Source: Desulfobacterales bacterium (GTDB lineage: Bacteria > Desulfobacterota > Desulfobacteria > Desulfobacterales > JAAELO01). Taken from it: a stretch of 35,413 nucleotides of DNA. The position numbers were made by a program, and so were the translations under genes. The notes beneath the pieces were generated by a model. That model was not told the origin of the DNA, ran no database searches, and was given only the letters and a program-made list of their open reading frames with translations. The stretch is taken from positions 1 through 35,413 of the forward strand of contig JAAELO010000902.1 in NCBI GenBank assembly GCA_024226555.1, read 5' to 3'. Positions 1 through 18,756 of the stretch are shown in pieces (positions within the stretch are counted from its first letter, which is position 1; every line of letters begins with the position of its first letter).

Positions 1-702
1 AATAAAAATTGTGTAGAAACTAAAATTGATTTTAGCGGTGATCTATCCAATGAATATGATGATATTGTACATAAAATAATACCTGCTTACCAGACTCTTT
101 ATGAGTTAACACAACACCTACTAAGAGATAAACTGGGAGCAGAGGCAAAAATATTAGTGTCTGGTGCAGGAACAGGAAAAGAGATAATTGACTGTTCACA
201 GAATAATCCCAACTGGTCCTTTACCGGTTTTGATCCGGCAGAACCGATGCTTACAATTGCCAGAAAAAAAGTGACTGCTGCTTCTCTTACAAACAGAATA
301 TCCCTTGTCCATGGCTTGATTAATGATGTTGCTGAAAAAGAATTTGATGCTGCCACATCTATTCTGGTTATGCATTTTCTTCCTGATGATGGGACAAAAC
401 TTAGTTTTTTAAAAGGTATTGCTGACAAATTAAAATCCGGAGCTGTTCTAATTCTTGTTGACCTAGAAGGAGAGAAAGGTTCGGATGAATTTAATTCCCT
501 TAATTCTGCCTGGAAAGATCAACAGCTATTTAAAAGAGGAGATAAAGAAAAGGTTAAAGATGAATTTGAATTACGGGATAAAGAAGTTCATTGCATAACT
601 CAAAAGCGTACTGAATCTTTACTGGAAGAAGCTGATTTCATTAAAATTCAAATATTTTTTAAAGCCTATCTTTTTAGCGGTTATGTGGCTGTAAAAAAAT
701 AG
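1..702 (+). CDS. class I SAM-dependent methyltransferase, 5' end outside the window
   Basis: The reading frame is open from the first base, so the gene starts upstream of the window. The GTG at 157 is unlikely to be the start because it falls inside motif I, which reads ILVSGAGTGKE and needs the preceding strand-helix residues. After motif I come an acidic strand end (FTGFDPAEPML), a motif around DAATSILVMHFLP and a late strand SGAVLILVDLEGE, the order seen in Rossmann-fold methyltransferases. Motif I has Ser where Asp or Glu is usual (VSGAGTG rather than LDLGCGTG). The substrate cannot be told. The C-terminus (FFKAYLFSGYVAVKK) looks natural. The next gene is convergent. Confidence 0.75.
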   Translation, partial: NKNCVETKIDFSGDLSNEYDDIVHKIIPAYQTLYELTQHLLRDKLGAEAKILVSGAGTGKEIIDCSQNNPNWSFTGFDPAEPMLTIARKKVTAASLTNRISLVHGLINDVAEKEFDAATSILVMHFLPDDGTKLSFLKGIADKLKSGAVLILVDLEGEKGSDEFNSLNSAWKDQQLFKRGDKEKVKDEFELRDKEVHCITQKRTESLLEEADFIKIQIFFKAYLFSGYVAVKK

Positions 703-707
703 TATTA

Positions 708-845
708 ATTTTTGAGAGTAAGTTAAAGTTATAAAACCTATGGACCCTCTGTAAGCTGGTGAAAATAAATTCGTTGTTTTTATCACCGTTGTAAAAGATT
801 CTCTAAAATCTGAGCTTGAAGTTAATTTTAGTTTACTTACTTTTC
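708..845. repeat. imperfect palindromic intergenic segment
   Basis: Between the methyltransferase stop and the convergent dehydrogenase there is no convincing gene. The segment holds a GGTGA / TCACC hairpin (758-762 with 783-787) with AT-rich pairing inside. Around it are looser outer arms (GAGAGTAAGT near 713 and ACTTACTTTTC near 835). It may work as a transcription end between convergent genes, but it has no clean T-run. Confidence 0.3.
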
Positions 846-937
846 TTTTTAAATGATGCACCGAACAAAATTAATCCATTTTGATCGGTGCTGACCACCT
901 GATGTCCGAAAGATTTTCCTGCAGGAAATGAAATTTA

Positions 938-1843
938 TTAACCTTTTGATATAAAATCATCTTCCAGAAATTTTGGATCAGGGTAGCTATAAAAACCTTC
1001 ACTGGATTTTATTCCTAGTTTTCCGTTATCCACATATTCTTTCAAATACTCTGCATTTTTTGTGATTTGAGGATTTTCATAAAGTTTTGCAATGTTGTCG
1101 GTTATTTTCCAGACAGTATCAATACCTATAGAGTCCATAATTCCAAAGGGGCCTGATTGTGATTTCATAACGCCCATCCATGCTCTGTCAATATCTTCTA
1201 CCGATGCTACCTTATTGCTTGCAAGAGTTACAGCTGATTTTAAGAAGTCACTTAGCATTGCATTAAAGACATAACCAAAATTTTCTTTTTTTAGCATAAT
1301 AACAATCTGACCAAGCTTTTCAGCTAAGGCTTTCACAAGCTCTATTGTCTCTTCACTTGTTCCAGGGTGTGGCATTATATCAACAACATCTGTTTGAATA
1401 ATATCGTGGAAATGAAATGCCAGAAATTTTTCTGGTCGACCAGTTTCTTCAGCAATCATTGAAGGAATCAGAGTAGAAGTATTAGTAGTAAAAATTGTTC
1501 TTTCAGGGCAAAGCTCATTAAAGGTTTTAAAAATTGTTGCCTTCATTTTAGGATCTTCAGGTACTGATTCTGTTATTAAATCAGCATCTTTTGCAGCTAA
1601 ATCCTTGTCTGTTGTATAGGTCATTCGATCAAGAGAATTTTCTTTTTCATCCGCTTTTAATCTTTTCATATGAACCAGTTTATCTGCAAAAAGTTTTACC
1701 CGCTCGCTTGCTTTATCTAAAACATCCTGATTAATATCATATACAACAACATTATAACCGTTTAAAGCGCATAGAAAACCAATCTGGTGTCCCATTGTGC
1801 CAGCTCCAATTACAAGTATTTTATTTAAATCTTCTATTTTCAT
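938..1843 (-). CDS. 3-hydroxyacyl-CoA dehydrogenase family protein
   Basis: A 301-residue protein, the usual length of single-function short-chain 3-hydroxyacyl-CoA dehydrogenases. These oxidise 3-hydroxyacyl-CoA to 3-ketoacyl-CoA with NAD+. The N-terminal Rossmann motif is VIGAGTMG (GAGTMG at 13-18), with Asp36 at the end of beta-2 as expected for NAD. ESVPED (92-97) and NTST (121-124) are family motifs. His144 fits the catalytic His, but the signature reads HFHD...VVDIMPHPGT rather than HFFNP...LVEV, so this is a divergent subfamily with an Asp near the usual catalytic Glu. The helical C-terminal domain follows. It lies downstream of the ACAD/kinase/SDR genes on the same strand, separated from them by a repeat element. 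RBS AGGAAG lies 7 bases before the ATG. Confidence 0.88.
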   Translation of the reverse strand: MKIEDLNKILVIGAGTMGHQIGFLCALNGYNVVVYDINQDVLDKASERVKLFADKLVHMKRLKADEKENSLDRMTYTTDKDLAAKDADLITESVPEDPKMKATIFKTFNELCPERTIFTTNTSTLIPSMIAEETGRPEKFLAFHFHDIIQTDVVDIMPHPGTSEETIELVKALAEKLGQIVIMLKKENFGYVFNAMLSDFLKSAVTLASNKVASVEDIDRAWMGVMKSQSGPFGIMDSIGIDTVWKITDNIAKLYENPQITKNAEYLKEYVDNGKLGIKSSEGFYSYPDPKFLEDDFISKG

Positions 1844-1864
1844 GTTTTACTTCCTTATAAAATT

Positions 1865-2081
1865 AGGGGAACCTCTAACAGATTATAAAACTAAAAAGCT
1901 TTAATTATGTTTTTTTTGGCTGAACAACAATGAAACAAAAGTTTTAATTATGTTTGCTTTGCGTTATTCCCAAAAAAGAGCTGCTGAGTATTATATAAAC
2001 AAACCAGCCCGATATATTTTTCTCATTCCATTATTTTAAAAGCTTTAGTTTTAATTTTACTAAAACATATAGAGGTTCCCT
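1865..2081. repeat. inverted-repeat element, family 1, copy A (217 bp)
   Basis: The ends are AGGGGAACCTCT (1865-1876) and AGAGGTTCCCT (2071-2081), which are inverted copies with one extra G on the left. A second inverted pair lies inside (ACTAAAAAGCTTT on the left, AAAGCTTTAGTT on the right). No coding frame is present. It has the length and orientation of copy E (30624-30838). It sits between the SDR stop and the 3-hydroxyacyl-CoA dehydrogenase start, so it would be transcribed in the middle of this operon and could fold in the RNA. Confidence 0.75.
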
Positions 2082-2139
2082 TTAATCAAAAAAATTTAAA
2101 TCTGGTCAGTTCCTTACCTGATAATAAATAGATATACTA

Positions 2140-2901
2140 TTAAGATACGAGATATCCTCCATCACAAACCAAACAGGTTCCGGTAGTAAATGATGCTGCA
2201 TCACTTACCAAATACAGAACAGCCCCGGCCATTTCTTCAGGTTGAGCTGCTCTTCCCATTGGGATCTGTTTAAAAATCTCTTTTTGAATATCTTCATTAT
2301 CTGTAATTGCTTTTGCAAATTTAGTTTCAGTAAGTCCTGGTAGTAATGCATTTACTCTAATGTTATCTGCGGCAAGCTCTTTTGCAAAAGACTGTGTCAT
2401 ATTTATTAAGCCAGCTTTTGTAACTGAATAGACTCCCTGAAAAAGACCTGGTTTAATTCCATTTATGGATGAAACATTTACAATTGCTCCGCCACCATTT
2501 TTCTTCATAAGGGCTACAGCTTTTTTAATCATAAAAAAGGGGCCCTTTAGATTTACTTCCACTGTTTTGTCCCACATGGAATCTTCCGCATCAAGGAGAT
2601 TTCCAAAATGTGGATTTGTTGCTGCATTATTAACCAATATATCTAATCTACCGAATTTTTCTTCAATCTCTTTATATAATGCTTCGATTTGATCAAGACT
2701 ACCTGCATGACAAGCAATTGGAGTTGCTTTATTCCCGGCACCATTAATCTCATCTGCTACTTCTTTTAAGCTTTCAATTTTTCTACTGGTAAGAATTACA
2801 TGCGCACCAGATTCCGCTAAAAGTTTTGCAATGGCTTTGCCAATTCCCCTGCTTCCACCTGTAATAACAGCAACCTTGTTCTCTAAAGAAAATGGATTCA
2901 T
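2140..2901 (-). CDS. SDR family NAD(P)-dependent oxidoreductase
   Basis: A 253-residue classical short-chain dehydrogenase/reductase. The cofactor motif TGGSRGIG is at 14-21, NNAA at 91-94, Asn117 in the helix, and catalytic Ser145, Tyr158 and Lys162 in SSINGIKPGLFQGVYSVTK. The C-terminal DGGYLVS is typical of the FabG-like group. It starts 15 bases after the kinase gene ends and belongs to the ACAD-kinase-SDR run. In levulinate catabolism (LvaD) an SDR interconverts 4-oxo- and 4-hydroxyacyl-CoA; a similar step here is inference from context. Substrate and cofactor preference cannot be read directly. RBS GGAGATG precedes the ATG. Confidence 0.9.
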   Translation of the reverse strand: MNPFSLENKVAVITGGSRGIGKAIAKLLAESGAHVILTSRKIESLKEVADEINGAGNKATPIACHAGSLDQIEALYKEIEEKFGRLDILVNNAATNPHFGNLLDAEDSMWDKTVEVNLKGPFFMIKKAVALMKKNGGGAIVNVSSINGIKPGLFQGVYSVTKAGLINMTQSFAKELAADNIRVNALLPGLTETKFAKAITDNEDIQKEIFKQIPMGRAAQPEEMAGAVLYLVSDAASFTTGTCLVCDGGYLVS

Positions 2902-2916
2902 TTTTCATCTCCAGTT

Positions 2917-3984
2917 TTAGAATTGTCTTTTAAGCATCACTTCCGATGCTGTTCTTTCCAGTATATGTACAAAAAAGGCTATATTTGCAAAACGCTTGTC
3001 CTTGGTTTGCCCATGATAATACCTGTAATATATCTGTTGTGCAATAACTGCCAGCCTGAACAAACCAAAACAGTAGTAAAACTCAAAATTTTTAATTTTA
3101 GTACCAGATAGCTCTTCATACAGCTTAACAATCTCTGCCCGATTAAGCATCCCCGGACTTGTTGTTGGAAGTGTTGCAATAAGCTTCATCTCATCGTTAT
3201 CATCATGATTGACCCAATAGGCGAGAGATGCACCAAGATCCATTAAAGGATCTCCAATAGTAGCCATCTCCCAGTCTACAACCCCTGTTATTTCAGATGG
3301 ATTATCAGGATTCAGGAAAACATTATCAAATTTATAATCATTATGAATGAGAGCAGGAGTTTTAGAGTCTTCCGGCATATTATCTTTTAACCATTCCATT
3401 ATTCCTTCAAAATCAGGAACATCTTCTGTTCTTGCATTTCTATATCGCTTTGTCCAGCCCTTTACCTGACGCTTTACATATCCTTCAGGTTTACCAAGAT
3501 CTTTGAGTCCACACGATTCATAGTCAAGTTTATGCAGATTACATAGAACATCAACCCAGTTTCTGCATAAACTTTTAATTCCTGATTCATCTGTGAAAAG
3601 TCCATTGGGCAACTCTTTACGAAGAATAATCCCTTTTAACCGTTCCATTACATAAAACGGAGCACCTATTACTTCCTCATCATCACAATATAAAAGCATT
3701 TCAGGCACATAATTAAATGAGCCTTTGATGGATGAAAGTATATTGAACTCCCTTTTCATATCATGGGCAGATTTTGCTTTTGTTCCAAAGGGTGGCCTTC
3801 TTAAAACAAGTTCTCTTTCTCCAACTGTTACCATATATGTAAGATTTGAAAAACCACTGGGAAATTGCTTAATATTTATTTCACCATCCATCTCTTTAAG
3901 ATTGGCTTTTAAATAAGCAGCAATCTTTTCTGTATCAAGCTCCTCACCATCTCGAACTTCCTTCGGGGAATCTATTTGTTGCAT
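2917..3984 (-). CDS. aminoglycoside-phosphotransferase-fold kinase (ACAD11 N-domain / LvaA type)
   Basis: A 355-residue protein of the APH/choline kinase fold. The Brenner loop is LIHNDYKFDN, with catalytic Asp216 and Asn221. The metal-binding Asp is in VVDWE (Asp237), followed by GDPLMDLG. The N-lobe has FPSGFSNLTY and ELVLRRPP (Arg-rich beta-3). This exact type is fused to an acyl-CoA dehydrogenase in animal ACAD10/ACAD11 and stands alone in the Pseudomonas putida levulinate pathway (LvaA), where it phosphorylates the 4-hydroxyl of 4-hydroxyacyl-CoA. Here it follows the ACAD gene by 15 bases. It is not expected to be an antibiotic resistance enzyme. Confidence 0.9.
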   Translation of the reverse strand: MQQIDSPKEVRDGEELDTEKIAAYLKANLKEMDGEINIKQFPSGFSNLTYMVTVGERELVLRRPPFGTKAKSAHDMKREFNILSSIKGSFNYVPEMLLYCDDEEVIGAPFYVMERLKGIILRKELPNGLFTDESGIKSLCRNWVDVLCNLHKLDYESCGLKDLGKPEGYVKRQVKGWTKRYRNARTEDVPDFEGIMEWLKDNMPEDSKTPALIHNDYKFDNVFLNPDNPSEITGVVDWEMATIGDPLMDLGASLAYWVNHDDNDEMKLIATLPTTSPGMLNRAEIVKLYEELSGTKIKNFEFYYCFGLFRLAVIAQQIYYRYYHGQTKDKRFANIAFFVHILERTASEVMLKRQF

Positions 3985-3999
3985 TATATCTCCTAATGG

Positions 4000-5223
4000 C
4001 TAAATATCCAGGGCCGCTCTTATTCCACCCTCTTTATGAGCTCTTAATATTTTTTTGGCAACGGACATCTTGTGAACTTCATCTGCACCATCAAAAATTC
4101 TTGCAGCTCTTTCATGTCTGTAAAAGTATGAAATAATAGTATCGTCTGTCATACCCAATCCACCATGAACCTGAAGAGCTCTGTCGATAACTTTCTGCAC
4201 TGTATTTGCTACAACAAACTTTATAAATGAGATATCATAACGTGCAGCCTTGTCACCATGTTTTTCTATCTGCCATGCAGCATTAAGCGTCATAAGTCTT
4301 ATTGCTTTAATTTCAGCTGCAGATTCAGCTATCCATGCTCTTATGATTTGCTGAGTTCCAAGGGTTTTACCATCCGGAGTTATCACTCTTTCATTTGCTC
4401 TTTTGCACATCAGGTCAAAGGATCTGTTACAAACTCCAAGCCAGCGCATGCAATGATGAATTCTCCCTGGTCCGAGTCTTTCCTGAGCTATAACGAAACC
4501 ATGCCCCTCAGGCCCTAAAAGGTTGCTTTGTGGAACTCTGCATGATTGATAAAGAATCTCTCCATGGCTACTGTAATCTGATCCTTCGTGACCCATAACC
4601 GGGATATTTCTTACAAGATTAAAGCCCTCAGTTTTTGTTGGGACAATAATCATGCTTGCCTGCATATATTTTGATGCTTCAGGATTTGTTACCGCCATAA
4701 CAATTGCAAACTCAGCACCATCAGCACTTGTTGTGTACCACTTATGACCGTTAATAATGTAATCAGAGCCATCCTTAACTGCTGTAGTTTCAAGCATTAT
4801 TGGGTTGGAGCCTGGCATATCAACTTCTGTCATGGAAAAACAACTTCTTATGTCACCATTAACAAGTGGAACCAAGTATTTTTCTTTTTGCTCATCAGTG
4901 CCATGCTTGTGTAAAACTTCAATATTTCCTGCATCCGGTGCCTGACAATTAAAAACATAATGCCCAATAGGAGTTCTACCCAAGGCTTCAGATACAAGTC
5001 CATGTTCAACAAGATCAAGACCCATTCCACCAATACCTTTTGGCTGATTAGGAGCCCATAGTTCCATCTGCTTTACCATCTCCCTTTTCTCTCTAAGAAC
5101 TGGGAGTAGTTCTTTAAACTCTTTGTGTAGAAACTCTTGTTCAAGTGGGATCAACTCTTTGTCAACAAATTCGTTGATCATATCAAGAATTACTTTCATT
5201 TTTTCTGAAATTTCAAAATCCAT
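4000..5223 (-). CDS. acyl-CoA dehydrogenase of the ACAD10/11-LvaC group
   Basis: A 407-residue flavoprotein with the three ACAD domains: the helical N-domain, the beta middle domain (CFSMTEVDMPGSNP, the FAD/substrate loop) and the helical C-domain with VHGGLGMTDDTIISYFYRHE. The catalytic-base motif, YEGT in ordinary acyl-CoA dehydrogenases, reads FDGADEVH with Asp378 in place of Glu. ACAD10/11 proteins share this Asp version (ADGPDEVH). In that group the enzyme processes 4-phosphoacyl-CoA made by the APH-like kinase. It is the first gene of the minus-strand operon. RBS GGAGGAAG lies just before the ATG, and a long palindrome just upstream of it is the likely TetR operator. Confidence 0.93.
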   Translation of the reverse strand: MDFEISEKMKVILDMINEFVDKELIPLEQEFLHKEFKELLPVLREKREMVKQMELWAPNQPKGIGGMGLDLVEHGLVSEALGRTPIGHYVFNCQAPDAGNIEVLHKHGTDEQKEKYLVPLVNGDIRSCFSMTEVDMPGSNPIMLETTAVKDGSDYIINGHKWYTTSADGAEFAIVMAVTNPEASKYMQASMIIVPTKTEGFNLVRNIPVMGHEGSDYSSHGEILYQSCRVPQSNLLGPEGHGFVIAQERLGPGRIHHCMRWLGVCNRSFDLMCKRANERVITPDGKTLGTQQIIRAWIAESAAEIKAIRLMTLNAAWQIEKHGDKAARYDISFIKFVVANTVQKVIDRALQVHGGLGMTDDTIISYFYRHERAARIFDGADEVHKMSVAKKILRAHKEGGIRAALDI

Positions 5224-5236
5224 AACTTCCTCCTAT

Positions 5237-5262
5237 AATTATATCGAGCGATCGATATAATT
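5237..5262. promoter_or_regulatory. probable TetR operator upstream of the ACAD operon
   Basis: This is a perfect 26-bp palindrome with 11-base arms (AATTATATCGA and TCGATATAATT) around GCGA. It ends 14 bases before the ACAD start codon, next to the RBS, where a bound repressor would block the promoter or early transcription. The core CGAGCG-A-TCGA matches CGAGCG-C-TCGA between the tetR and etfB genes. Binding by the TetR at 5999-6685 is inferred from that match. Confidence 0.7.
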
Positions 5263-5308
5263 GTTAAATATAAATATTAGCTTAAAATTTAAATAGTCCT
5301 GAAAAAAA

Positions 5309-5998
5309 CTATCTAAAAGTCAGCATTTTCTCTTCAACTGCCAAAAAACCGGTTTCATTAAACCCGGTCAATATAAAATTATCTTTGTTAAATTTAAGCT
5401 TTGTTATTGAACAATTAAGAATCTGCCACGAAAGTTTTAAGGCCTCTTTATCTGATATATTTAGTGCAAGCTGAACAATTGCTGCAATCACTCCACCTGA
5501 ACTAAATATGCCAATTTTTTTGGAAGACCCCTCATCAATCATAACCTTTGAAACCTCTTTTTCAACACGTTCTACAAACCCTCTCCAGCTGATAACATCA
5601 AATCTGTCCGGCTGCTCAAGCCATTTGAAAACTGATCTCTCAAACACTAACTGAAAAGCTCTGTTACTCTCAAACATTCTGTCCACTTCTTTTTTGAATT
5701 CAGGTTCATCATTGATCAGATAAGGTATAACTTCCCTTAATACATCTTCGAACTCAAACTCATTAAATGCCGATCTGATCTTAATCTCTTCATGTTCTTT
5801 TAAAAGATTTTCAGATGGTAAAAAAGTCTGCCTGTGCCTTTTGTTTTCACCAAGATAAAAGCTGTCAAACCTAACTCCCGTTTTGTTCAAAAAATTTGCA
5901 AGCAGTTTTGACTGTGTATATCCTTTATCTGACAACTGATCATAATCCTCTTTACCAAAGGATGCCTGACCATGCCTTATTAAATAGATTTCACTCAT
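5309..5998 (-). CDS. histidine phosphatase family protein
   Basis: A 229-residue member of the phosphoglycerate-mutase-like superfamily. The N-terminal phosphate pocket is YLIRHGQASFG, with His9 as the residue that becomes phosphorylated; an acidic residue near 80 (NEFEFED) and the later FSSGGVIA segment complete the fold. The FSSGG segment has Ser where the second catalytic His (usually SHGG) is expected, so activity may be altered. The ATG follows the tetR TAA directly with no gap, so the two genes are translationally linked. Such phosphatases often sit beside APH/ACAD genes, and one could remove phosphate from a phospho-acyl intermediate. This is inference. Confidence 0.82.
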   Translation of the reverse strand: MSEIYLIRHGQASFGKEDYDQLSDKGYTQSKLLANFLNKTGVRFDSFYLGENKRHRQTFLPSENLLKEHEEIKIRSAFNEFEFEDVLREVIPYLINDEPEFKKEVDRMFESNRAFQLVFERSVFKWLEQPDRFDVISWRGFVERVEKEVSKVMIDEGSSKKIGIFSSGGVIAAIVQLALNISDKEALKLSWQILNCSITKLKFNKDNFILTGFNETGFLAVEEKMLTFR

Positions 5999-6685
5999 TT
6001 AGCAGTCTCCCTTTACAAAAGCCATTACAAAGGAGATTACATGCTTTGCATAATCATCCACTGAGATGTTCCGCCGATTGTATTTCCATCTCTTCAGATA
6101 CCAATCCTGCAGCATAGATTTAATTGCAGATGCAGTCAAAACAGGGTCGCCCAATTTAAAATCACCTTTTAAACGGCCCATTTCCAATATTTCTGAAAAT
6201 ATTTGTTCCGTTAAAAGCTCGGTCTCAATGGATTTTTCCTGTTCCTCCCTGATAAAAAAACGAGCCTCCATATATGAAAAGAAAAACCAAGGCTGCATTA
6301 ACTCACTTAAATATATGTGGGTATAAATAGCCCTTGTTAGTTGATCTATTGAGCTTTCTTTTTCATTGCCATATGTATCCATTACTTTTAGAAGTAACCG
6401 TCTTCCCTGATCCTGAATAACTTCTAAAAGTTCATCTTTACTGCTTATATATCCATATAAACCGCCCATACTTAATCCACATTCACTGCAAAGCTCTCTT
6501 AAGCTCATTGCATGAAAACCTTTTCTATTGGATATCGTGATTGCAGTTTCAATAATTGTTTTAAGTTTCTTAACACCAACCCGCTCATTTTTAACTTTGA
6601 TTGAGTTGTTATCATCCTGAATGATTTCGTAACAGATATCCTCCATGGACATCTTAAACTCTTTTTTAAAATCTGAGAATTTCAT
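5999..6685 (-). CDS. TetR/AcrR family regulator of the acyl-CoA locus
   Basis: A 228-residue protein. The N-terminal helix-turn-helix lies at about 60-80 (MSLRELCSECGLSMGGLYGYISSKDEL), preceded by a longer than usual N-terminal extension of about 40 residues. The C-terminal ligand domain is variable, as in the family; acyl-CoA ligands are common for TetR regulators next to beta-oxidation genes (FadR, PsrA and relatives). It is divergent from etfB with a palindrome between them, and a matching palindrome lies before the ACAD gene. The simplest model is an autoregulated repressor of both operons. Confidence 0.88.
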   Translation of the reverse strand: MKFSDFKKEFKMSMEDICYEIIQDDNNSIKVKNERVGVKKLKTIIETAITISNRKGFHAMSLRELCSECGLSMGGLYGYISSKDELLEVIQDQGRRLLLKVMDTYGNEKESSIDQLTRAIYTHIYLSELMQPWFFFSYMEARFFIREEQEKSIETELLTEQIFSEILEMGRLKGDFKLGDPVLTASAIKSMLQDWYLKRWKYNRRNISVDDYAKHVISFVMAFVKGDC

Positions 6686-6753
6686 TAAATTTACCTTTTG
6701 GTTTTAATCTTTATATGACCATAGATAGTTTAAAAATGATTGTCAAGAAAATA

Positions 6754-6770
6754 GAGCGAGCGCTCGAATT
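6754..6770. promoter_or_regulatory. probable TetR operator between tetR and etfB
   Basis: The core is the perfect palindrome CGAGCGCTCG (6757-6766) within AGCGAGCGCTCGAATT. The shared string CGAGCG-N-TCGA also occurs before the ACAD gene. Its position directly upstream of a possible etfB promoter and within the tetR promoter region fits dual control. Confidence 0.65.
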
Positions 6771-6776
6771 ATTTTA

Positions 6777-6805
6777 TTGCCCTCTTAATAAATTTGGTAT
6801 ATAAA
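6777..6805 (+). promoter_or_regulatory. etfB: possible sigma70-type promoter for etfBA
   Basis: TTGCCC (6777-6782), a 17-base spacer and TATAAA (6800-6805) give a plausible -35/-10 pair 31 bases before the etfB ATG. The TetR-type palindrome ends 10 bases upstream of the -35. An AGAGGA RBS follows. This is read by eye only. Confidence 0.4.
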
Positions 6806-6836
6806 AGGAGTATAAAAATAAAAGAGGATAATTAAG

Positions 6837-7622
6837 ATGAAAATTCTTGTTTGCATAAAACAGGTTCCAATAGTTGAAGAGCTCTTAGAGCTTGATACAG
6901 AAAAAAAATGGCTTTCCGATACTGATGTTGAGTACCGCATAAACAGGTTCGATGAGTTTGCCATCGAAGAAGCCCTTCTTATCAAAGAAACAACTAAAGG
7001 TACAACAGTTGATGTTATATCATTTGGACCGCAGCGGGTTGAAACTGCTCTTCGAAGAGCAATGGGTATGGGAGCAGATAATGGGATTCATATTGAAGAC
7101 GAAACAGAAGGTTTCATAAATCCTCTTACAATAGCAACACTGATAGGCCAATACGCACAAAACAATGATTACGACCTTATCTTTACCGGAATAATGTCTG
7201 AAGACAGTATGCAATCTCTTGTAGGACCAATGCTTGCATCGTACTTAAATTTGCCATGCGCTGTATCGGTTGTAGAAACCAAACTTGACGAGAAAACAGA
7301 AAAAATTTCAGTAAAATGCGAACTTGAGGGAGGCCATTATCAAAATGTTAGACTTAATCTACCTTCAGTTTCAACCATTCAAAGCGGTATTAATAAACCC
7401 AGATACCCTTCTCTTTCAAACATGCTAAGAGCTAATAAACAGGACCTGATTAATATTGATATAAATTCTCTAAAAAAACCTCAAACCAATGAAAAAATTT
7501 TGAATATCAGTCTTCCGGAACGGTCAAATAAAATTAAATTCCTTGAAGGCTCTATGGAAGAAAAAGCAGAAGAACTGATTCAATTACTTCATAAAAAAGC
7601 GATATTAAGAGGGAATCTATAA
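6837..7622 (+). CDS. etfB: electron transfer flavoprotein subunit beta
   Basis: A 261-residue ETF beta subunit (FixA family). With EtfA it accepts electrons from acyl-CoA dehydrogenases. The N-terminus MKILVCIKQVP and the segment INRFDEFAIEEAL are family hallmarks, followed by VDVISFGPQRVETALRRAMGMGADNGIHI and the nucleotide-binding GIMSEDSMQSLVGPMLASYLNLP. It pairs with etfA downstream and is divergent from the TetR gene of the ACAD operon, which supports electron transfer from that ACAD. The last codons (Gly-Asn-Leu-stop) are formed by the end of a repeat element starting at 7610, so the native C-terminus has been replaced or trimmed. Confidence 0.95.
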   Translation: MKILVCIKQVPIVEELLELDTEKKWLSDTDVEYRINRFDEFAIEEALLIKETTKGTTVDVISFGPQRVETALRRAMGMGADNGIHIEDETEGFINPLTIATLIGQYAQNNDYDLIFTGIMSEDSMQSLVGPMLASYLNLPCAVSVVETKLDEKTEKISVKCELEGGHYQNVRLNLPSVSTIQSGINKPRYPSLSNMLRANKQDLINIDINSLKKPQTNEKILNISLPERSNKIKFLEGSMEEKAEELIQLLHKKAILRGNL

Positions 7623-7741
7623 TAATTTGAATTTTGATAGAAATACAAGGCTAGAGAAAAAAATAATGAGCCGGTTTTTACAACAGTTCTTTTTTTGGAA
7701 AAAACGCAGTATTTCAGTTAAAAGGCAGTTATTAGATTCCC
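7610..7741. repeat. inverted-repeat element, family 1, copy B (132 bp)
   Basis: The left end AGGGAATCTATAATAA starts inside etfB and supplies its last three codons and stop. The right end TTATTAGATTCCC finishes at 7741. The interior (GAAATACAAGGC, ATAATGAGCCGGTTTTTACAACAGTT) matches copy C at 12322-12453, which has the same length and orientation, and copy D inverted. It fills nearly all of the etfB-etfA gap, so the two genes are probably co-transcribed through it. Confidence 0.85.
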
Positions 7742-7764
7742 GCAAAATAGGATAGGAATTAGAT

Positions 7765-8733
7765 ATGAGTGCAGATATTCTCCTTTTAATAGATACAATA
7801 GAAGACAAATTATCATCAGGCTATTATGATCTGATAGGTATTTTAAATCATTTTGATCAAGATGCTATTAAATCAAAAATGATAATTTCAAGTAGGAACA
7901 AAATCCTACCCCAGGTGCCTGAGAATAAATGTCACGATCTTGATATTCTCAATGTATTAAATGACAAGTTTAAACACCCAATCCCGCAAGCTTTTTCAAA
8001 GGAAATTTTAAGTAGACTTAATGGCGTTAAACCCAAATACATCTGCCTGCCTCATAATATGAGAGGTTGTCAGATAGCCGCTGATTTAGCAATTAACCTG
8101 AACACTTCCGTGGTTTCAGGGGTGGATGCTTTAATTCAAAAAGACGATCAGGTTCTATTAAAAAAAAGTGTGATGAATGGAAAGTGGATTACAGAAACAG
8201 CTCCTCTTAATTATCCTGTAATTTTCACAATTAATCAGGGTGCCTTTTCAGCACAAGAAGATATTTATATTGATATAGATGAAGATATAATTTCCTATGA
8301 AGAAATTGAAATAAGTGATGATAGTTATACCTCATTAAATATTTCTTCAATGGATGATGATAACAGCTCTATAGAAGATGCTGAGGTTGTGATTGGTGCT
8401 GGAAGGGGCGCAGAAGATGAAGATGTTATTGAGCTGATACATGAATTTGCAAAGTTTTTTAAGAATGGTGGAGTTGGTGCATCAAGACCATTATGTGATG
8501 CCGGAATATTTCCATACTCTCATCAGATTGGTGAAACAGGGAAAGTTATATCTCCAAAACTTTATATTGCCTGCGGAGTTTCAGGATCAAACCAGCATAT
8601 TGCAGGAGTAAGACAGGCTCAGGAAATTATAGCAATTAACAAAGATCCCCAGGCAGCTATTTTCCAGATTGCAGACATAGGAGTTGTTGCTTCTCTCGAA
8701 GAATTTCTTCCGATACTTTTAGGGGCTTTGTAA
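7765..8733 (+). CDS. etfA: electron transfer flavoprotein subunit alpha
   Basis: A 322-residue ETF alpha subunit (FixB family). The C-terminal FAD domain is well preserved: VIGAGRGAEDED, GGVGASRPLCDAGIFPYSHQIGETGKVISPKLYIACGVSGSNQHIAGV (the signature containing the FAD-binding Arg, Ser and Gln-His) and INKDPQAAIFQIADIGVVASLEEFLP. The N-terminal half is more variable, with an acidic stretch (IDIDEDIISYEEIEISDD) near residues 170-190. It follows etfB after a 142-base gap filled by a repeat. Its TAA stop lies within the end of a second kind of inverted repeat (8727-8872). Confidence 0.95.
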   Translation: MSADILLLIDTIEDKLSSGYYDLIGILNHFDQDAIKSKMIISSRNKILPQVPENKCHDLDILNVLNDKFKHPIPQAFSKEILSRLNGVKPKYICLPHNMRGCQIAADLAINLNTSVVSGVDALIQKDDQVLLKKSVMNGKWITETAPLNYPVIFTINQGAFSAQEDIYIDIDEDIISYEEIEISDDSYTSLNISSMDDDNSSIEDAEVVIGAGRGAEDEDVIELIHEFAKFFKNGGVGASRPLCDAGIFPYSHQIGETGKVISPKLYIACGVSGSNQHIAGVRQAQEIIAINKDPQAAIFQIADIGVVASLEEFLPILLGAL

Positions 8734-8872
8734 AATTCTCCATTTTCTTCGTTATAACTTTCTGTCAATTTCTCAACGTATTGGAAATACGACCCGTTTC
8801 TAACAAATATTTTTAACGCAGTAAGGAGAGAAAAGCGTATTTTTTTCTCTCGTACTGGAGGAATTTTACAAA
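8727..8872. repeat. inverted-repeat element, family 2 (about 146 bp)
   Basis: The left end TTTGTAAAATTC-TCCA (8727-8742) and the right end TGGAGGAATTTTACAAA (8856-8872) are inverted copies with a one-base difference. The interior has no reading frame and includes GTAAGGAGAGAAAAGCGTA. The etfA stop codon is part of the left arm. Only one copy was found here. It lies between convergent genes and may end transcription. Confidence 0.65.
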
Positions 8873-8879
8873 GACACCT

Positions 8880-9926
8880 TTAATTCCGTCCGAATATGCG
8901 CTTTCTGTTGTATCTATAGAATCCTGATTTTTCTTCAATTGCTATGGTATTGGCCTCATATTTGAAATACTTCTCCCTTAATTCATTTAACTGAACATCA
9001 AGATCATCGCCATCATATGTCTTAGCTAAAGCATCTCTCTCTTTCATATAATTCAAACCATTTTCCCAGCGCTTTTCCCGCTTAAGGTCTCTTTTCGCCA
9101 TCACCTCTATCTCTTGCTGATTATAACCTATCTCTTTTCTGATCTCGTTTAGCTTATCTAACCTATCATCCTGATTTAAACCCAACAGCTCTTTTTGTAC
9201 TGAGTTCATATTAAAAAAAGATGTGGCAAGATTATATTTTCTGTTTGTTAGGGTCTCTTTTTCAGTAGAGTACTCCTCATCCACAGTATTTTTAAAAATT
9301 TCAAGTTTCTCATCAATGGTATCTGTTGATTTATCAAGGATTGCAATTGTATCTCTAACAGTATCTATCTTAGATTCTTCAGACCATATTTTGGCTGCAT
9401 CATCACCAAAAAAACTTTTTCTGATATCTGACAGAGCCTGTTTAATCTCATCGTAATTCATCCCGGAAAAATTTTCACCAGTTGCAAGCCACTTATTATA
9501 TTCATCCATCTTGATTATTAATTTGAAAATTTTTTCTGCTTCATCTGGAAAAGCACCTTTTATAATTTTTTGGAAAAGTTTTTTCCAGTTCTCAGGATAG
9601 TGTTTTTTTATAAAGTTTCTAAACCTTATCAACTTTAGCTGATTTTTTATGTCCGAAATTGAAGAACCAAACTTAGCTTTTAAACTTTTAATGGAGATAT
9701 CTATAAATCCATCTTTATCTTCAAGAGCTTTTTTAAGTTCCTCTTTAGTAATTAGCATTGGCTGCTTATTATTTTTTCCTTTTTTTTTGGAATTCTTAAT
9801 TTCCTCTTTATGCTGCATTATGTCCTTGCCATTTATGCTTTTCTGGGGAGCCTTGTTTGAAAAGAAAAAAATACCAGCGTATAGAAGAGTCAGGGTGAAT
9901 AAAGCGCCTATTATTTTTAGTTTCAT
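8880..9926 (-). CDS. lipase-chaperone-like membrane-anchored protein
   Basis: A 348-residue protein with an N-terminal hydrophobic anchor (residues 5-22), a Lys-rich linker (25-60) and a long charged, helical remainder. Length, layout and several stretches (KALEDKDGFIDISIKSLKAKFGSS; IRKSFFGDDAAKIWSEESKIDT; LNEIRKEIG; LRKYFKYEANTIAIEEKSGFYR-like C-terminus) resemble lipase-specific foldases (Lif/LifO), which are anchored in the inner membrane and fold secreted lipases in the periplasm. The classical RxxFDY motif is not obvious. The gene next to it encodes an exported SGNH esterase, a sensible client but not the alpha/beta-hydrolase lipase type served by known Lif proteins. The call is tentative. 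Confidence 0.55.
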   Translation of the reverse strand: MKLKIIGALFTLTLLYAGIFFFSNKAPQKSINGKDIMQHKEEIKNSKKKGKNNKQPMLITKEELKKALEDKDGFIDISIKSLKAKFGSSISDIKNQLKLIRFRNFIKKHYPENWKKLFQKIIKGAFPDEAEKIFKLIIKMDEYNKWLATGENFSGMNYDEIKQALSDIRKSFFGDDAAKIWSEESKIDTVRDTIAILDKSTDTIDEKLEIFKNTVDEEYSTEKETLTNRKYNLATSFFNMNSVQKELLGLNQDDRLDKLNEIRKEIGYNQQEIEVMAKRDLKREKRWENGLNYMKERDALAKTYDGDDLDVQLNELREKYFKYEANTIAIEEKSGFYRYNRKRIFGRN

Positions 9927-9995: not shown

Positions 9996-10727
9996 CTAAA
10001 TATCAATAACATTCCAGATCAAGCTTGCAAGAACTTTTGATCCTTCTTTTGTTGGATGTATACCATCAACAATTATATAACTGTTTTTAAAGCTGCTTCT
10101 TGGGTCGACGAATACACAGTTTACTGAAGCATTGGAACATGCCTGTGAAAGACGCTGGTTTCCATAATCAACTGCATCTGATAGTTTTGAAAGGTCTCCA
10201 AAAACACCAAATTTAGTATGGTAATATCCCTGATAAACAACCTGCTGAACATTATCCTGACCCATTTCATTAAGAAGATTGACAGCATCAACATAAAGAT
10301 CATCAATAAGATCTTTACACTGTTGTGAAAGATCTCCACACCACCAGTAATTACAGGTTTTACAATTGTATGGATCGAGTGCTATTGCAGGAAGAAGAAT
10401 ATCATTTCCACCTCCATCCATATAAACGACTCGTATATTAGGATTATCTGCCTTGGCTGTATCATACTGTTCCGGAATTGATGGTCCTAATATACCTCCA
10501 TTTAGCTGTGTTCCAGAGATTGCATAATGACGCCAGGTCTCCCCGGCCCAGCTGTGAAGGTAATCATAAATATCACCTGATAAAGCAAAGATTGAATCAC
10601 CGACATTTACAATTTCATTATTGTCGGCATTCCTTAATTGTGGGACACTCACCATATATCCGCATGCAAATATGAGTGATACTGAAAACAAAATCATCAA
10701 AAAACGAAACCGCTTTAATCCAGTCAT
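9996..10727 (-). CDS. SGNH/GDSL hydrolase lipoprotein
   Basis: A 243-residue esterase or lipase of the SGNH superfamily. The signal peptide ends in SLIFAC with Cys22 as the likely lipidated residue. Block I is VNVGDSIFAL with nucleophile Ser45 (GDS), block III is GGGND (Asn108) and block V is DGIHPT with Asp221 and His224. An oxyanion Gly comes from the SGTQLNGG stretch (71-78). Six Cys after the lipobox (122, 125, 130, 137, 197, 204) suggest disulfides in the periplasm or outer membrane. The natural ester substrate is unknown. A strong terminator follows; the lipase-chaperone-like gene is next on the same strand. Confidence 0.88.
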   Translation of the reverse strand: MTGLKRFRFLMILFSVSLIFACGYMVSVPQLRNADNNEIVNVGDSIFALSGDIYDYLHSWAGETWRHYAISGTQLNGGILGPSIPEQYDTAKADNPNIRVVYMDGGGNDILLPAIALDPYNCKTCNYWWCGDLSQQCKDLIDDLYVDAVNLLNEMGQDNVQQVVYQGYYHTKFGVFGDLSKLSDAVDYGNQRLSQACSNASVNCVFVDPRSSFKNSYIIVDGIHPTKEGSKVLASLIWNVIDI

Positions 10728-14715: not shown

Positions 14716-17700
14716 ATGGAAGATGGATTTATTATTAAAGATGGTGTCTTGGAAGCATATACACTAAGAGATGCGATTGTAGAGGTTCCAGATAAAGTTA
14801 CATCCATTGGTAAAGGTGCTTTCAAGGGATGTATAAGTATTGAACAGGTTACTCTTCCTGAAGGAGTAACAGAAATTGTGGATACTGCTTTTAAGGGCTG
14901 CAGAAAACTGAAAGAGATAAACTTTCCTTCAAATCTTACCCATATTGGAGAACATGCTTTCCATCGTTGTCATTCTTTACGTATTGCAAAACTTCCTGAT
15001 AGAGTTACAACTCTTGGCAGAGGGGCATTTTTATTATGTGACAGCCTGGAATATGTTTCTATTAAAGGTGTTAAAAAGCTTAACAAACAGGTTTTTTTAA
15101 ATGATGTAAATTTAAAAACAATTGAAGTTTCAAGTGATCTGGATATATCCAACATAAATGAGATCTTAATGGGTTGCAGTAAGATATCTGAGATAGTCTT
15201 ATCTGATGGAACTGTTTGCAATGTTGAAAACGTTATTGAGGTTATATCTGAACATTCTAAAGCCCACCCTGTGGCTAAAGCAATTGTCACTGATATATTC
15301 AGAATGCTGATGATTAAAGATGGCATTCTGCAAAAATTACTAATTAATGTAAAGGATGTGGAGATACCAAATGGCATAACCGGTATTTCAAAAAACTGTT
15401 TTTCTAATAAAAAGGGTTTGGTATCTGTAACGTTTCCTGAAACCTTAACTGAGATTGGAAGCCTGGCATTTAGTAATTGTATCAGTCTTGCAAAAATCGA
15501 ATTTGGAAGCGAAAATATAAATATAAACCGTAATGCCTTCATAAATTGCACTTCTCTAAAACATATTGCATTAGCTGATGGGAACACATATGAATTAATT
15601 AAAAATTTGTCAGAAACATCTGATGAAAGCACTCCACATATAATAAGTACAATTCATTCACAGATACTGAATAATTTTTTTGTCAGTGGTACCACATTGA
15701 TAAAGTATAGAGGAAATGAAGAAAGAGTTATTGTTCCCGATCATGTAACGGTAATTGGAGAGAAAGCTTTTGCTGGCAATGAAGTAATTGACAAAGTAAT
15801 TCTGCCGGATTCCATCAGAGAGATTCGTGAAGAGGCTTTTTCTGATTGCCTGCTTTTACAGAATATTGATGTTCCAAAAGGCCTGACATATCTTGGTAAA
15901 TCGGCATTTGAAAACTGTGTAAAACTTATACGTATAGATCTCCCGGAATCACTTACCACAATAGAAAAATCCGCTTTTAACAGATGCAGAAAGTTGAAAG
16001 ATGTGCAATTTGGAAGTAATATTAAAGAGATTGACGACCTTGCTTTCTACTCATGCAGTTCACTGAAAAATTTACTTCTGCCTGAGAAATTGAAAAGTAT
16101 TGGTGATATGGCATTTTATAAGTGCCTGTCATTAAAGGAAGTAATACTACCGGAATCTTTAGATAGCCTTGGCAATAATGTATTTACAGCGGCAGGATTG
16201 AAATCTGCAACAATAAACTGTGATTTGAAAAAATGTGGTACAGATATTTTTTCCCAATGTAATAAACTGTGGAGCCTGACTTTCAGTGAAGGTATAAAAA
16301 ATATTGGTGATAAATTTGCTTTTGGATCGACATCGCTTAAATATGTGAACCTACCCTCTTCAATCGAAAATATAGGCAGAAATGCGTTTGAAAACAGTAT
16401 CTATATAAAAGAAACAGTAAAGGAAGTAGTAGCAGCAGGAACTATCTGTATAAATGGAGATAGAATTCTGGGAGAGGTTGAAATACCTGAAGGAATAACT
16501 GCTATCGCAGGAGGAGCATTTTATGGTAATACCTGGATTACTTCTGTAAAATTTCCTAAATCTCTTAAACTAATTGGTTCGAGAGCTTTTTGTGGATGCA
16601 CTTCACTTAAAAGCATAACACTTCCAGATGATGTAACTGTATTGGAAGAAGGAGTTTTTGCTTATTGTACATCTCTTCGGAGTGTTGTTTCCAAAGGCAG
16701 GATTTCACGAATATCTGACAATGCATTTTATGAATGCAATACAATACTTAAGGTTCCTTCATCAAAAGCTGCCCATATTGGTAAAAATGCATTTAATGGT
16801 TGTAGAAAGCTTGAAAACATTGAGATAAACTGCACAGATATACAGGCAGGAGCTTTTAGAAAAACTCAGTTTTTACAAAACATAAGAGAAAAATCATCAC
16901 TTGTCATAATATCTGATACTGTTGTTGATGGTAAGAATTGTACAAAAGAGATTATTATTCCTGAAAATGTAGTTAGTGTTGCTCCTTATGCTTTTGCAGG
17001 AAATGACAGTATAACCGGCATAAAGTTTCCTGATAATCTTGAATCAATTGGAGAAGATGCTTTTGGAGGGTGTAAGAATCTAAAAGAGATTACTCTTCCA
17101 TCCTTGAAATATATTGGTAAAAAAGCATTTGAAAAGTGTGTATCGCTTATAAGTGTTAAAGGTAATGTGGAAACATTAGAAGAAGGTGTATTTTCATACT
17201 GTATAAATCTGAAAAAAGTAATGATAGATAAAACAATATCTTTTGGTAAAGAGGTGTTCTGTGGTTGTTCTGCAATTGAAGTCATCAAATGCAACGAACT
17301 GCAATATATAGGAGACAGTTGTTTTAATGGATGTGATTCTCTATGCGACTTTGATTTTTCCAATATTAAATCCATAGGGCACAGAGCTTTTGGCGGCTGT
17401 AATTCACTTAAAAGTATTTCACTACGTGCAGACACTGTTGTTGAAGCCCATGCTTTTGAGGATTGTTGCAGTATAGAAAAAATAGAGTTATCTGAAGAAG
17501 GACTTCAATTTGGAAGTTATGCATTTGCCGGATGTACTGCTCTAAAAGCAATAGTTATTTGTGAAAAGAGATATACTACCGATCACTATTCAGTTATTTC
17601 AAAGAAACAGATACCAGACAGTGTAAAATCTATATACAACAGTGCAATCAGCTGTTTTGATATTGACGAAAACCTCTCAATAATTGAATACAAAAACAAT

Positions 17701-18756
17701 GGAATATCTGTACATATTCCTGATGGAATTAAAGCAATTAAAGCTAATGTTTTTATAGATGTTATGAATCTTGAGAAAATATATATACCTGAAAGTGTGG
17801 AATATATTGGTGAAAGAGCTTTTAATAGTACGATATGGTTAGAAGAGCAGAAAGCTGTCACACCGATGGTGATTATAAACAATATACTGGTTGATGCTTC
17901 TTTATGTCAGGGTGATGTTGTAATTCCTGAATCCGTTAAAATAGTATCAGGCTGGGCATTTGCAAACTGCTACGCACTAACAGGTATTTCCTTTTCTTCC
18001 AAAACTGTTGTGGAAAAGTATGCGTTTCGAAACTGTATAAATTTAAAAAGTGTAACTGATGGTGATGATAAAGAATACCATTTGATAGACCTCTCAGATA
18101 GATATGATGAAATGCTGCCTAATGTTATCAGGCAAATTTTTACAGATTGCTTAAATTGTTTTAAAACAGAAGATGAAAATGTTCTTATCGAATGCACAGG
18201 AAATATCAACGATCTTGTATTACCAGATGGAATAACAGCGATTAACGACAATGTATTTAAAGATAGTAATTTACTAACATACATATCTTTATCAAAAGAT
18301 ACAGTTAAAATTGGTAAAAGTGCGTTCGAACATTGTAAATGGCTGGTTTCAGTCAAAAATGCATATGGTGTGGAGAGGATAGAAAAACATGCTTTTTCAG
18401 GGTGTTCATTATTAGAAAATCTGGAACTTTCAGATAAGCTTAAATATATTGGTCCAAGAGCATTTGAACATTGTCTGTCTCTAAAAAGCGTTGTCATACC
18501 TGAAGGTATTACTAAAATACCTGAGAAGGCTTTTTACAGATGCAAAAATTTAGTGAAGATAACATTGCCCACAACTCTTAAAACAATAGGTAAAGAAGCA
18601 TTTGCTTTTTGCGATGAACTGACAGGCATAAATTTCCCGGAAGAGCTCGAGTCTATTGATACCAGAGCATTTGCATGGTGCTCAGCCCTTGATAAAAAAC
18701 ACCTGCCGGAAGGTGTTTCGGTAAAAACAGATTCCTTCAGCACAGGTAGTATATGA
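14716..18756 (+). CDS. giant BspA-like leucine-rich repeat protein (LRR_5), cytoplasmic
   Basis: A 1346-residue protein made almost entirely of BspA/LRR_5 repeats of about 23 residues (pattern I-x-x-x-A-F-x-x-C-x-x-L-x-x-I-x-L-P-x-x-L-x-x-I). Several higher-order modules can be seen. Each opens with a beta-hairpin-like line such as FFVSGTTLIKYRGNEERVIV, ICINGDRILGEVEIPEGIT, VIISDTVVDGKNCTKEIIIP or MVIINNILVDASLCQGDVVI, followed by 4-7 repeats. There is no signal peptide, anchor or sorting motif, unlike the surface BspA proteins of Treponema or Tannerella, so it should stay in the cytoplasm unless another secretion route exists. Its TGA overlaps the next ATG (ATGA), linking it to the aldo/keto reductase. 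Role unknown; protein binding is likely. Confidence 0.9.
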   Translation: MEDGFIIKDGVLEAYTLRDAIVEVPDKVTSIGKGAFKGCISIEQVTLPEGVTEIVDTAFKGCRKLKEINFPSNLTHIGEHAFHRCHSLRIAKLPDRVTTLGRGAFLLCDSLEYVSIKGVKKLNKQVFLNDVNLKTIEVSSDLDISNINEILMGCSKISEIVLSDGTVCNVENVIEVISEHSKAHPVAKAIVTDIFRMLMIKDGILQKLLINVKDVEIPNGITGISKNCFSNKKGLVSVTFPETLTEIGSLAFSNCISLAKIEFGSENININRNAFINCTSLKHIALADGNTYELIKNLSETSDESTPHIISTIHSQILNNFFVSGTTLIKYRGNEERVIVPDHVTVIGEKAFAGNEVIDKVILPDSIREIREEAFSDCLLLQNIDVPKGLTYLGKSAFENCVKLIRIDLPESLTTIEKSAFNRCRKLKDVQFGSNIKEIDDLAFYSCSSLKNLLLPEKLKSIGDMAFYKCLSLKEVILPESLDSLGNNVFTAAGLKSATINCDLKKCGTDIFSQCNKLWSLTFSEGIKNIGDKFAFGSTSLKYVNLPSSIENIGRNAFENSIYIKETVKEVVAAGTICINGDRILGEVEIPEGITAIAGGAFYGNTWITSVKFPKSLKLIGSRAFCGCTSLKSITLPDDVTVLEEGVFAYCTSLRSVVSKGRISRISDNAFYECNTILKVPSSKAAHIGKNAFNGCRKLENIEINCTDIQAGAFRKTQFLQNIREKSSLVIISDTVVDGKNCTKEIIIPENVVSVAPYAFAGNDSITGIKFPDNLESIGEDAFGGCKNLKEITLPSLKYIGKKAFEKCVSLISVKGNVETLEEGVFSYCINLKKVMIDKTISFGKEVFCGCSAIEVIKCNELQYIGDSCFNGCDSLCDFDFSNIKSIGHRAFGGCNSLKSISLRADTVVEAHAFEDCCSIEKIELSEEGLQFGSYAFAGCTALKAIVICEKRYTTDHYSVISKKQIPDSVKSIYNSAISCFDIDENLSIIEYKNNGISVHIPDGIKAIKANVFIDVMNLEKIYIPESVEYIGERAFNSTIWLEEQKAVTPMVIINNILVDASLCQGDVVIPESVKIVSGWAFANCYALTGISFSSKTVVEKYAFRNCINLKSVTDGDDKEYHLIDLSDRYDEMLPNVIRQIFTDCLNCFKTEDENVLIECTGNINDLVLPDGITAINDNVFKDSNLLTYISLSKDTVKIGKSAFEHCKWLVSVKNAYGVERIEKHAFSGCSLLENLELSDKLKYIGPRAFEHCLSLKSVVIPEGITKIPEKAFYRCKNLVKITLPTTLKTIGKEAFAFCDELTGINFPEELESIDTRAFAWCSALDKKHLPEGVSVKTDSFSTGSI

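Follow-up and report, generated by a model that had tools for sequence, protein, structure and literature searches.

The window analyzed here is a 35,413-nucleotide (nt) stretch from a Desulfobacterales bacterium (GenBank assembly GCA_024226555.1, contig JAAELO010000902.1, positions 1 to 35,413 of the forward strand). It raises the question of whether a gene cluster near its start encodes 4-hydroxyacyl-coenzyme A (CoA) catabolism of the levulinate/ACAD11 type, as proposed in an initial annotation, and of why genes for an electron transfer flavoprotein (ETF) stand beside that cluster. Phosphorylation of 4-hydroxyacyl-CoA and elimination of the phosphate, feeding β-oxidation, is the best explanation that we find for the locus from sequence comparison, with a probability of about 0.82. 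The proposed resemblance held for the active-site fingerprint of the acyl-CoA dehydrogenase (ACAD) and for the grouping of the kinase, and did not extend to the lva operon proper. The genes concerned are listed below (aa, amino acids).

938..1843, minus strand: 3-hydroxyacyl-CoA dehydrogenase, PRK08293 type, 301 aa (Pfam 3HCDH_N/3HCDH; NCBIfam NF006143, 362 bits, cut-off 312)
2140..2901, minus strand: short-chain dehydrogenase/reductase (SDR), PRK07035 type, 253 aa (NF005446, 415 bits, cut-off 373)
2917..3984, minus strand: stand-alone APH-type kinase, 355 aa (Pfam APH, 177 bits)
4000..5223, minus strand: ACAD11/LvaC-type ACAD, 407 aa (PDB matches, fingerprint residues, tree)
5309..5998, minus strand: histidine-phosphatase-fold protein, 229 aa (Pfam His_Phos_1, 62.9 bits)
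5999..6685, minus strand: TetR-family regulator, 228 aa (Pfam TetR_N and TetR_C_24)
6837..7622, plus strand: ETF beta subunit (etfB), 261 aa (Pfam ETF)
7765..8733, plus strand: ETF alpha subunit (etfA), 322 aa (Pfam ETF_alpha, 97.5 bits)

The five genes originally named in the range 938-5998 were all intact minus-strand open reading frames (ORFs) with Pfam and NCBIfam assignments that agreed with their names. The range itself was too short, as the set extends upstream into tetR (5999-6685), which adjoins the phosphatase gene; the minus-strand set spans 938-6685, with etfBA divergent from it at 6837-8733.

Active sites of the dehydrogenase and the kinase

The substitution of Asp for Glu in the ACAD was confirmed in the motif FDGADEVH, in which the catalytic Asp is Asp378. 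Among solved structures the top matches were human and mouse ACAD11 (278-282 bits), followed by 4hr3 (259 bits), with ordinary ACADs at no more than 155 bits. Residues R249, R254, H257, R260 and D378 correspond to R626, R631, H634, R637 and D753 of mouse ACAD11; the phosphate pocket of ACAD11 is present (R249, H257 and R260; HCMR region), as is the equivalent of R631 (R254), a general residue. In published work, nonconservative changes of R626, H634 and R637 were the most disruptive to the ACAD activity of mouse ACAD11 and a D-to-N change of its catalytic Asp abolished that activity (PMC12440821); the catalytic Asp is likewise required in ACAD10 (PMC11342911).

An alignment of 103 rows was assembled from the window protein, 98 proteins selected by similarity from the fetched loci and 4 PDB chains, and the five-residue ACAD11 fingerprint was found in 97 of them; the 6 rows without it were ordinary ACADs (26-31% identical), including 3 from the window's own genome. 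In a tree computed by a quick method, with long branches flagged by the program and with neither LvaC nor ACAD10 among the rows, the fingerprint ACADs were split from the ordinary, Glu-type enzymes with a branch support of 100, which was the comparison that the initial annotation had proposed. They fell into two clades and a single long branch of Rhodococcus. ACAD11, 4hr3 and plasmid-borne enzymes make up the first clade (13 rows); the second (83 rows) holds the window enzyme and, by record title, enzymes mostly of Desulfobacterota ('Deltaproteobacteria'), Spirochaetes, Acidimicrobiia and Chloroflexi. By tree and alignment the window enzyme lies outside the ACAD11 clade, in its sister clade, and is 40% identical to human ACAD11; judged by its active site it would act like ACAD11, though in a different clade, and we regard it as a candidate flavoenzyme eliminating phosphate from 4-phosphoacyl-CoA. 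Residue 265, five residues past the R637 equivalent, was Cys in 69 of the 83 rows of the window's clade and Ala in ACAD11, in most aligned ordinary ACADs and in the Acidimicrobiia-type enzymes.

The kinase carries intact HxDxxxxN (HNDYKFDN) and DWE motifs, as originally described. Its matches in the PDB were 9o56 (337 bits), 3dxp (196 bits) and the ACAD11 kinase domain (155-159 bits), and in the phylogeny it grouped with the ACAD11 kinase domain, while another APH-type protein of the genome fell outside the family on a very long branch. R172, H214, D216, N221 and D237 were invariant in 61 of 61 rows and Glu239 was replaced in two rows only, by Asp; R172 was paired with the CoA-contacting R176 of ACAD11 by counting along the pairwise alignment. 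These features make the protein a candidate 4-hydroxyacyl-CoA kinase of the LvaA/ACAD11-N type. The window pair shares with mammalian ACAD11 the catalytic Asp, the HCMR motif, the Arg upstream of it and the catalytic residues of the kinase, and differs from mammalian ACAD10/11 in being two separate proteins with no HAD domain, in addition to the identity and sister-clade position given above.

The SDR, in which Ser145, Tyr158 and Lys162 are all present, is a candidate LvaD-like 4-oxoacyl-CoA/4-hydroxyacyl-CoA dehydrogenase, and the 3-hydroxyacyl-CoA dehydrogenase, with His144 kept in 16 of 16 aligned rows, is proposed to perform the following β-oxidation step. From the observed gene content, conserved residues, phylogeny, neighborhood and palindrome, we infer the reactions, the substrate and the binding of TetR as follows. 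A CoA ligase encoded elsewhere in the genome would activate the acid, the SDR would interconvert 4-oxoacyl-CoA and 4-hydroxyacyl-CoA, and the kinase would phosphorylate the 4-hydroxyl of 4-hydroxyacyl-CoA with ATP. The Asp-type ACAD would remove the phosphate through transiently reduced flavin adenine dinucleotide (FAD) to yield 2-enoyl-CoA, with 3-hydroxyacyl-CoA perhaps also formed after hydration of 2-enoyl-CoA, and the 3-hydroxyacyl-CoA dehydrogenase would carry the product onward. The histidine-phosphatase-fold protein would most likely stand in for LvaB as a partner of the kinase, and the local TetR would bind the conserved palindrome between the module and the ETF pair and control both.

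In line with the initial annotation, the ORFs of the window's first 12 kb yielded no acyl-CoA ligase. AMP-binding proteins elsewhere in the genome (25 matches, some in large multidomain proteins) could be the source of a ligase. The gaps of 700-8900 held only four ORFs of at least 25 aa (29, 29, 42 and 63 aa), a count made with no LvaB sequence for comparison.

Conserved neighborhood, the ETF pair and the palindrome

To describe the neighborhood we used the best 80 of 587 related stretches and 12 plasmid loci, and the resulting 92 loci were sorted by hand according to tree position and record title. The first group comprised 60 loci, most of them from Desulfobacterota and Spirochaetes; SAR324, Firmicutes and Holophagae each appear in the title of one record. 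The group does not form a clade, because the Acidimicrobiia-type ACADs nest inside it. Relatives of the window proteins were found nearby in the following numbers of these 60 loci, with counts for loci that had enough flank on both sides (well flanked) in parentheses: EtfB, 37 (24/30); EtfA, 30 (18/27); kinase, 43 (26/28); TetR, 44 (27/34); phosphatase family, 37 (24/34); SDR, 21 (12/18); 3-hydroxyacyl-CoA dehydrogenase, 11 (7/18). Such repeated co-occurrence of these genes in many further genomes shows that the locus is not a chance assembly. Outside the group EtfB was found in 0 of 32 loci (24 well flanked), namely 0/8 of the Acidimicrobiia type (6 well flanked), 0/13 other loci of the window's clade (7), 0/10 of the ACAD11-side clade (10) and 0/1 of Rhodococcus.

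ORFs of at least 110 aa from 80 loci were also clustered and labeled by similarity to window proteins and by eye. EtfB ORFs lay on the strand opposite the ACAD in 31 of 32 cases, and no further coding-strand family occurred in more than 5 of the 80 loci; families present in 4 and 3 loci were enoyl-CoA hydratase-like by eye. Two plasmid clusters also favor the proposed pathway. On the plasmid of Azoarcus sp. KH32C (L142) an AMP-binding protein, a thiolase, a histidine phosphatase, a phosphotransferase, an SDR and an ACAD form a near-complete pathway in one run, and a Bosea plasmid cluster combines the genes of the module with a 3-hydroxyacyl-CoA dehydrogenase and a thiolase.

Linkage to the kinase bears on whether the ACAD could be an ordinary desaturase in which Asp is a conservative change, the kinase acting on another substrate. 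Its Pfam domains do not set it apart from the ordinary ACAD family, and the sequence alone is compatible with such an enzyme. The full ACAD11 fingerprint, the split from Glu-type enzymes and the repeated association with an LvaA-type kinase in two distant clades (26/28 and 9/10 well-flanked loci) leave this explanation very improbable, and we retain phosphorylation and phosphate elimination.

The ETF genes share with the canonical ETF of acyl-CoA dehydrogenases the EtfB and EtfA domains, the FAD-site motifs and the PRYxxL loop; passages of PMC6085437 offered no EtfB motif that could serve to tell a bifurcating from a canonical ETF. Leu193 of this loop, which we take to be the anchoring Leu, was kept in 36 of 37 EtfB rows, and EtfA contains SRP, GETGKVISPKLY and SGSNQH, motifs that we assume to bind FAD. 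The own genome contains two EtfB genes, including that of the window, and 14 other ACAD-like matches, some partial. The difference from the canonical case lies in physical linkage to an enzyme type reported as needing no external acceptor: according to two reports, ACAD10/11 need a redox-active FAD and no electron acceptor (PMC11342911, PMC12440821), so that the linkage to ETF genes calls for an explanation. The ETF is part of the module and not a bystander; it may serve other β-oxidation steps, or it may accept electrons from the window ACAD in anaerobes.

The latter would be a variant in which the ACAD hands electrons to the linked ETF, and we advance it tentatively as a possibility of minor weight. 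It could take the form of a net oxidation, converting 4-phosphoacyl-CoA to 2,4-dienoyl-CoA and phosphate, or of a reset of enzyme left with FADH2 after premature departure of the dienoyl intermediate, a state that O2 could repair in aerobes and not in anaerobes. The ACAD is the only flavoenzyme recognized in the conserved cluster, and the adjacency of EtfB inside the group and its absence outside, the conserved palindrome between the two gene sets, the single other EtfB for 14 other ACAD-like matches and the kept loop Leu all favor coupling. It is disfavored by the acceptor-free activity of ACAD10/11, by the chance that the ETF serves ordinary ACADs in other rounds of β-oxidation and by the 6 of 30 well-flanked group loci without EtfB. 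Comparison of 35 ETF-linked with 8 Acidimicrobiia-type ACADs gave three marker columns, of which Cys265 was the clearest, and no convincing marker residue for the ETF-linked enzymes, since Cys265 also occurs in loci without ETF.

Two operator-like sites were located in the window.

6757..6766, no strand assigned: TetR-type operator CGAGCGCTCG, within the 151 nt that separate the divergent genes
5245..5254, no strand assigned: second palindrome resembling the operator, which reads CGATCGCTCG on the minus strand and overlaps a promoter-like site

The promoter-like site (5267-5238, 11 of 12) lies upstream of the ACAD gene; such sites showed no excess in the region (34 versus 31.0 expected by shuffling). 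Of 35 divergent gaps (the window's and those of 34 loci), 21 contained the exact palindrome CGARCGYTCG, as compared with a chance mean of 0.015 and a maximum of 1 in 200 dinucleotide shuffles. When the other 14 gaps were compared with a 14-base consensus, 8 had one mismatch, those of L019, L042 and L065 two or three, and those of L039, L048 and L049 four or five. Genome-wide, exact copies were present at 4 sites (1 for a reversed control); two of the three beyond the window were within ORFs and one was near a contig end, with phage- or plasmid-like neighbors by eye. A ligase under the same operator was considered and rejected, as none of these three sites precedes catabolic genes, and the regulator therefore looks local.

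A looser pattern, CGANCGNTCG, gave 20 sites in the own genome, including the second operator at 5245, and 4 in the control. Ten of these loci were inspected (leaving out the sites on C430, C611, C805 and C898 and a second site on C386), and in 7 the site was within a dispersed ATGACGACC-type repeat. A dispersed repeat of the own genome with GGAATGACGACCGTTCG mimics the operator pattern (L102:4004, L103:4074, L105:4082, L106:3954). Among the 60 group loci the looser form was found no more than 400 nt upstream of an etfB, phosphatase or ACAD gene in 43, elsewhere only in 2 and not at all in 15; it also occurred outside the group (23 sites in 11 of 32 loci), and in low-GC genomes it is therefore informative only by its place. 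The TetR protein is probably a local repressor, and its control of both the module and etfBA through the predicted operator is the simplest reading of this arrangement.

Several points weigh against the pathway proposed here. A reaction that is reported to proceed without an acceptor (PMC11342911, PMC12440821) would not be expected to have an ETF of its own, and no ligase or thiolase was recognized as conserved in the cluster by ORF clustering of the 80 loci. The Acidimicrobiia-type loci had no relative of the kinase, the ETF or the phosphatase nearby (8 of 8; 6-7 well flanked). As far as we found, no assayed enzyme falls within the window ACAD's clade, and given the 40% identity and the sister-clade position, substrate or outcome may differ from those of ACAD11.

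The histidine-phosphatase-fold protein

The protein named a histidine phosphatase in the initial annotation belongs to that family and fold, and one of the two catalytic His residues is missing from it, with Ser167 in its place. A set of 51 rows was compiled from the window protein, 42 similar proteins from the fetched loci and 8 plasmid proteins. The first His (RHG motif; R8, H9), Arg54 and Glu80 were invariant in 29 aligned rows, as expected of PGAM-type histidine phosphatases (His_Phos_1), which share the fold, the RHG nucleophile motif and the conserved Arg and Glu. Ser167 aligns to GHGG of PDB 9mmh, the site of the second His, which we presume to be catalytic. Unlike those phosphatases, all relatives found here have Ser at this site (50 of 50 rows covering it, with the first His kept in 50 of 50 covering rows), and the gene lies beside that of the kinase. 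Because the rows were chosen for their similarity to the window protein, His-type relatives at a greater distance would have escaped notice. The window copy also lacks His218, which is kept in 40 of 41 aligned rows. An AlphaFold model had the family fold (predicted local distance difference test score 94.1, predicted template modeling score 0.90), and its top Foldseek match was 4ij5, a phosphoserine phosphatase.

Two family members of the own genome, on C398 and C141, have a His near the place of the second His by eye (in C398, at the SixA-type place). The C141 gene (L134) is split over two overlapping frames and has Tyr at the first catalytic His. This comparison is a weak control, because C141 is split and lacks the first His and because placement was by eye. 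We also examined 8 plasmid loci, hand-picked among the 30 listed of 44 records matching the phosphatase-fold protein alone: an annotated phosphotransferase was beside the phosphatase-fold gene in 6, none was within 3.5 kb in 1, and 1 was cut by the record end.

In a study of Pseudomonas citronellolis LA18T, genes for a kinase, a histidine phosphatase, an ACAD and an SDR adjoin the two genes most induced by levulinate, no lvaB is present, and removal of the phosphate by the histidine phosphatase is proposed; the same source states that in P. putida LvaB binds to LvaA (PMC6692424). By analogy with that proposal the window protein could be a working phosphatase that clears stalled 4-phosphoacyl-CoA, which the invariant R8, H9, Arg54 and Glu80 and the fold match to active phosphatases such as 4ij5 would support. 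We consider such activity doubtful, as the second catalytic His is Ser throughout and His218 is lost from the window copy as well. With Ser for the second His, a partner or regulator of the kinase is likelier than a phosphatase, and the protein is most likely a non-catalytic or altered kinase partner in the place of LvaB. A parallel with an unrelated fold is the HAD domain of ACAD10, whose catalytic motif is incomplete and which holds the kinase in check (PMC11342911); it belongs to another family than the window protein, and each is without a catalytic residue.

Host, known systems and significance

The host genome (7.69 Mb in 904 contigs) encodes dsrA at 606 bits, over the family cut-off of 393, and the host is therefore probably a sulfate reducer, in agreement with the earlier view of the combination with ETF in a probable anaerobe. 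One further feature lies within the gene cluster.

1867..2080, no strand assigned: intergenic element with terminal inverted repeats of 11 nt, arms GGGAACCTCTA/TAGAGGTTCCC

This element sits in the 296-nt gap that separates the SDR from the 3-hydroxyacyl-CoA dehydrogenase and may explain that spacing; it is perhaps an inserted dispersed non-coding repeat, the gap having 20 further partial matches in the own genome (70-100% identical, mostly short). Near etfA, 9996-10727 is a GDSL-like lipase/acylhydrolase candidate slightly under both Pfam cut-offs, which was dropped as a clue to the substrate after zero matches in the 92 related loci. Oleate hydratase was likewise rejected as a source of 4-hydroxy acids, being absent from the own genome; across 22 genomes searched there were 2 strong matches, one at the cut-off and three below it. 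Farther along, 14716-18756 encodes a very large leucine-rich-repeat protein of the BspA type (1346 aa), after which comes an ORF resembling aldo/keto reductases.

The lva operon has the same separate kinase and ACAD together with an SDR, and the LA18T cluster likewise includes a gene for a histidine phosphatase and is without lvaB (PMC6692424). The window locus differs from both in that no adjacent ligase or transporter genes were seen, a TetR protein replaces the sigma-54 type LvaR, and a 3-hydroxyacyl-CoA dehydrogenase and an ETF are added in a probably anaerobic host. A literature search by title and the start of the abstract, outside which most subscription journals fell, found no paper on the module in anaerobes or on its ETF link. 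We read the locus as a variant of a known pathway, set apart by two testable oddities, the ETF linkage and the Ser-type phosphatase fold.

The two features could also be taken together, such that an ACAD11-type enzyme of anaerobes is coupled to a linked, co-regulated ETF and its kinase is governed by a His-deficient phosphatase-fold protein. We think this combination unlikely as a whole; if it were true, two unrelated decayed phosphatase folds (the Ser167 type and the ACAD10 HAD domain) would be attached to the same kinase. The Ser-type histidine phosphatase is a bacterial counterpart in which the recurrent association of this kinase with phosphatase-like proteins can be studied, and it is a candidate to fill the role left vacant by LvaB. 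The ETF link bears on the open question of the function of FAD in ACAD10/11. The papers cited here describe 4-hydroxyacyl-CoA catabolism for pseudomonads and mammals; phosphorylation and phosphate elimination at this locus would extend it to a wide array of probable anaerobes, and the conserved gene order makes that extension testable.

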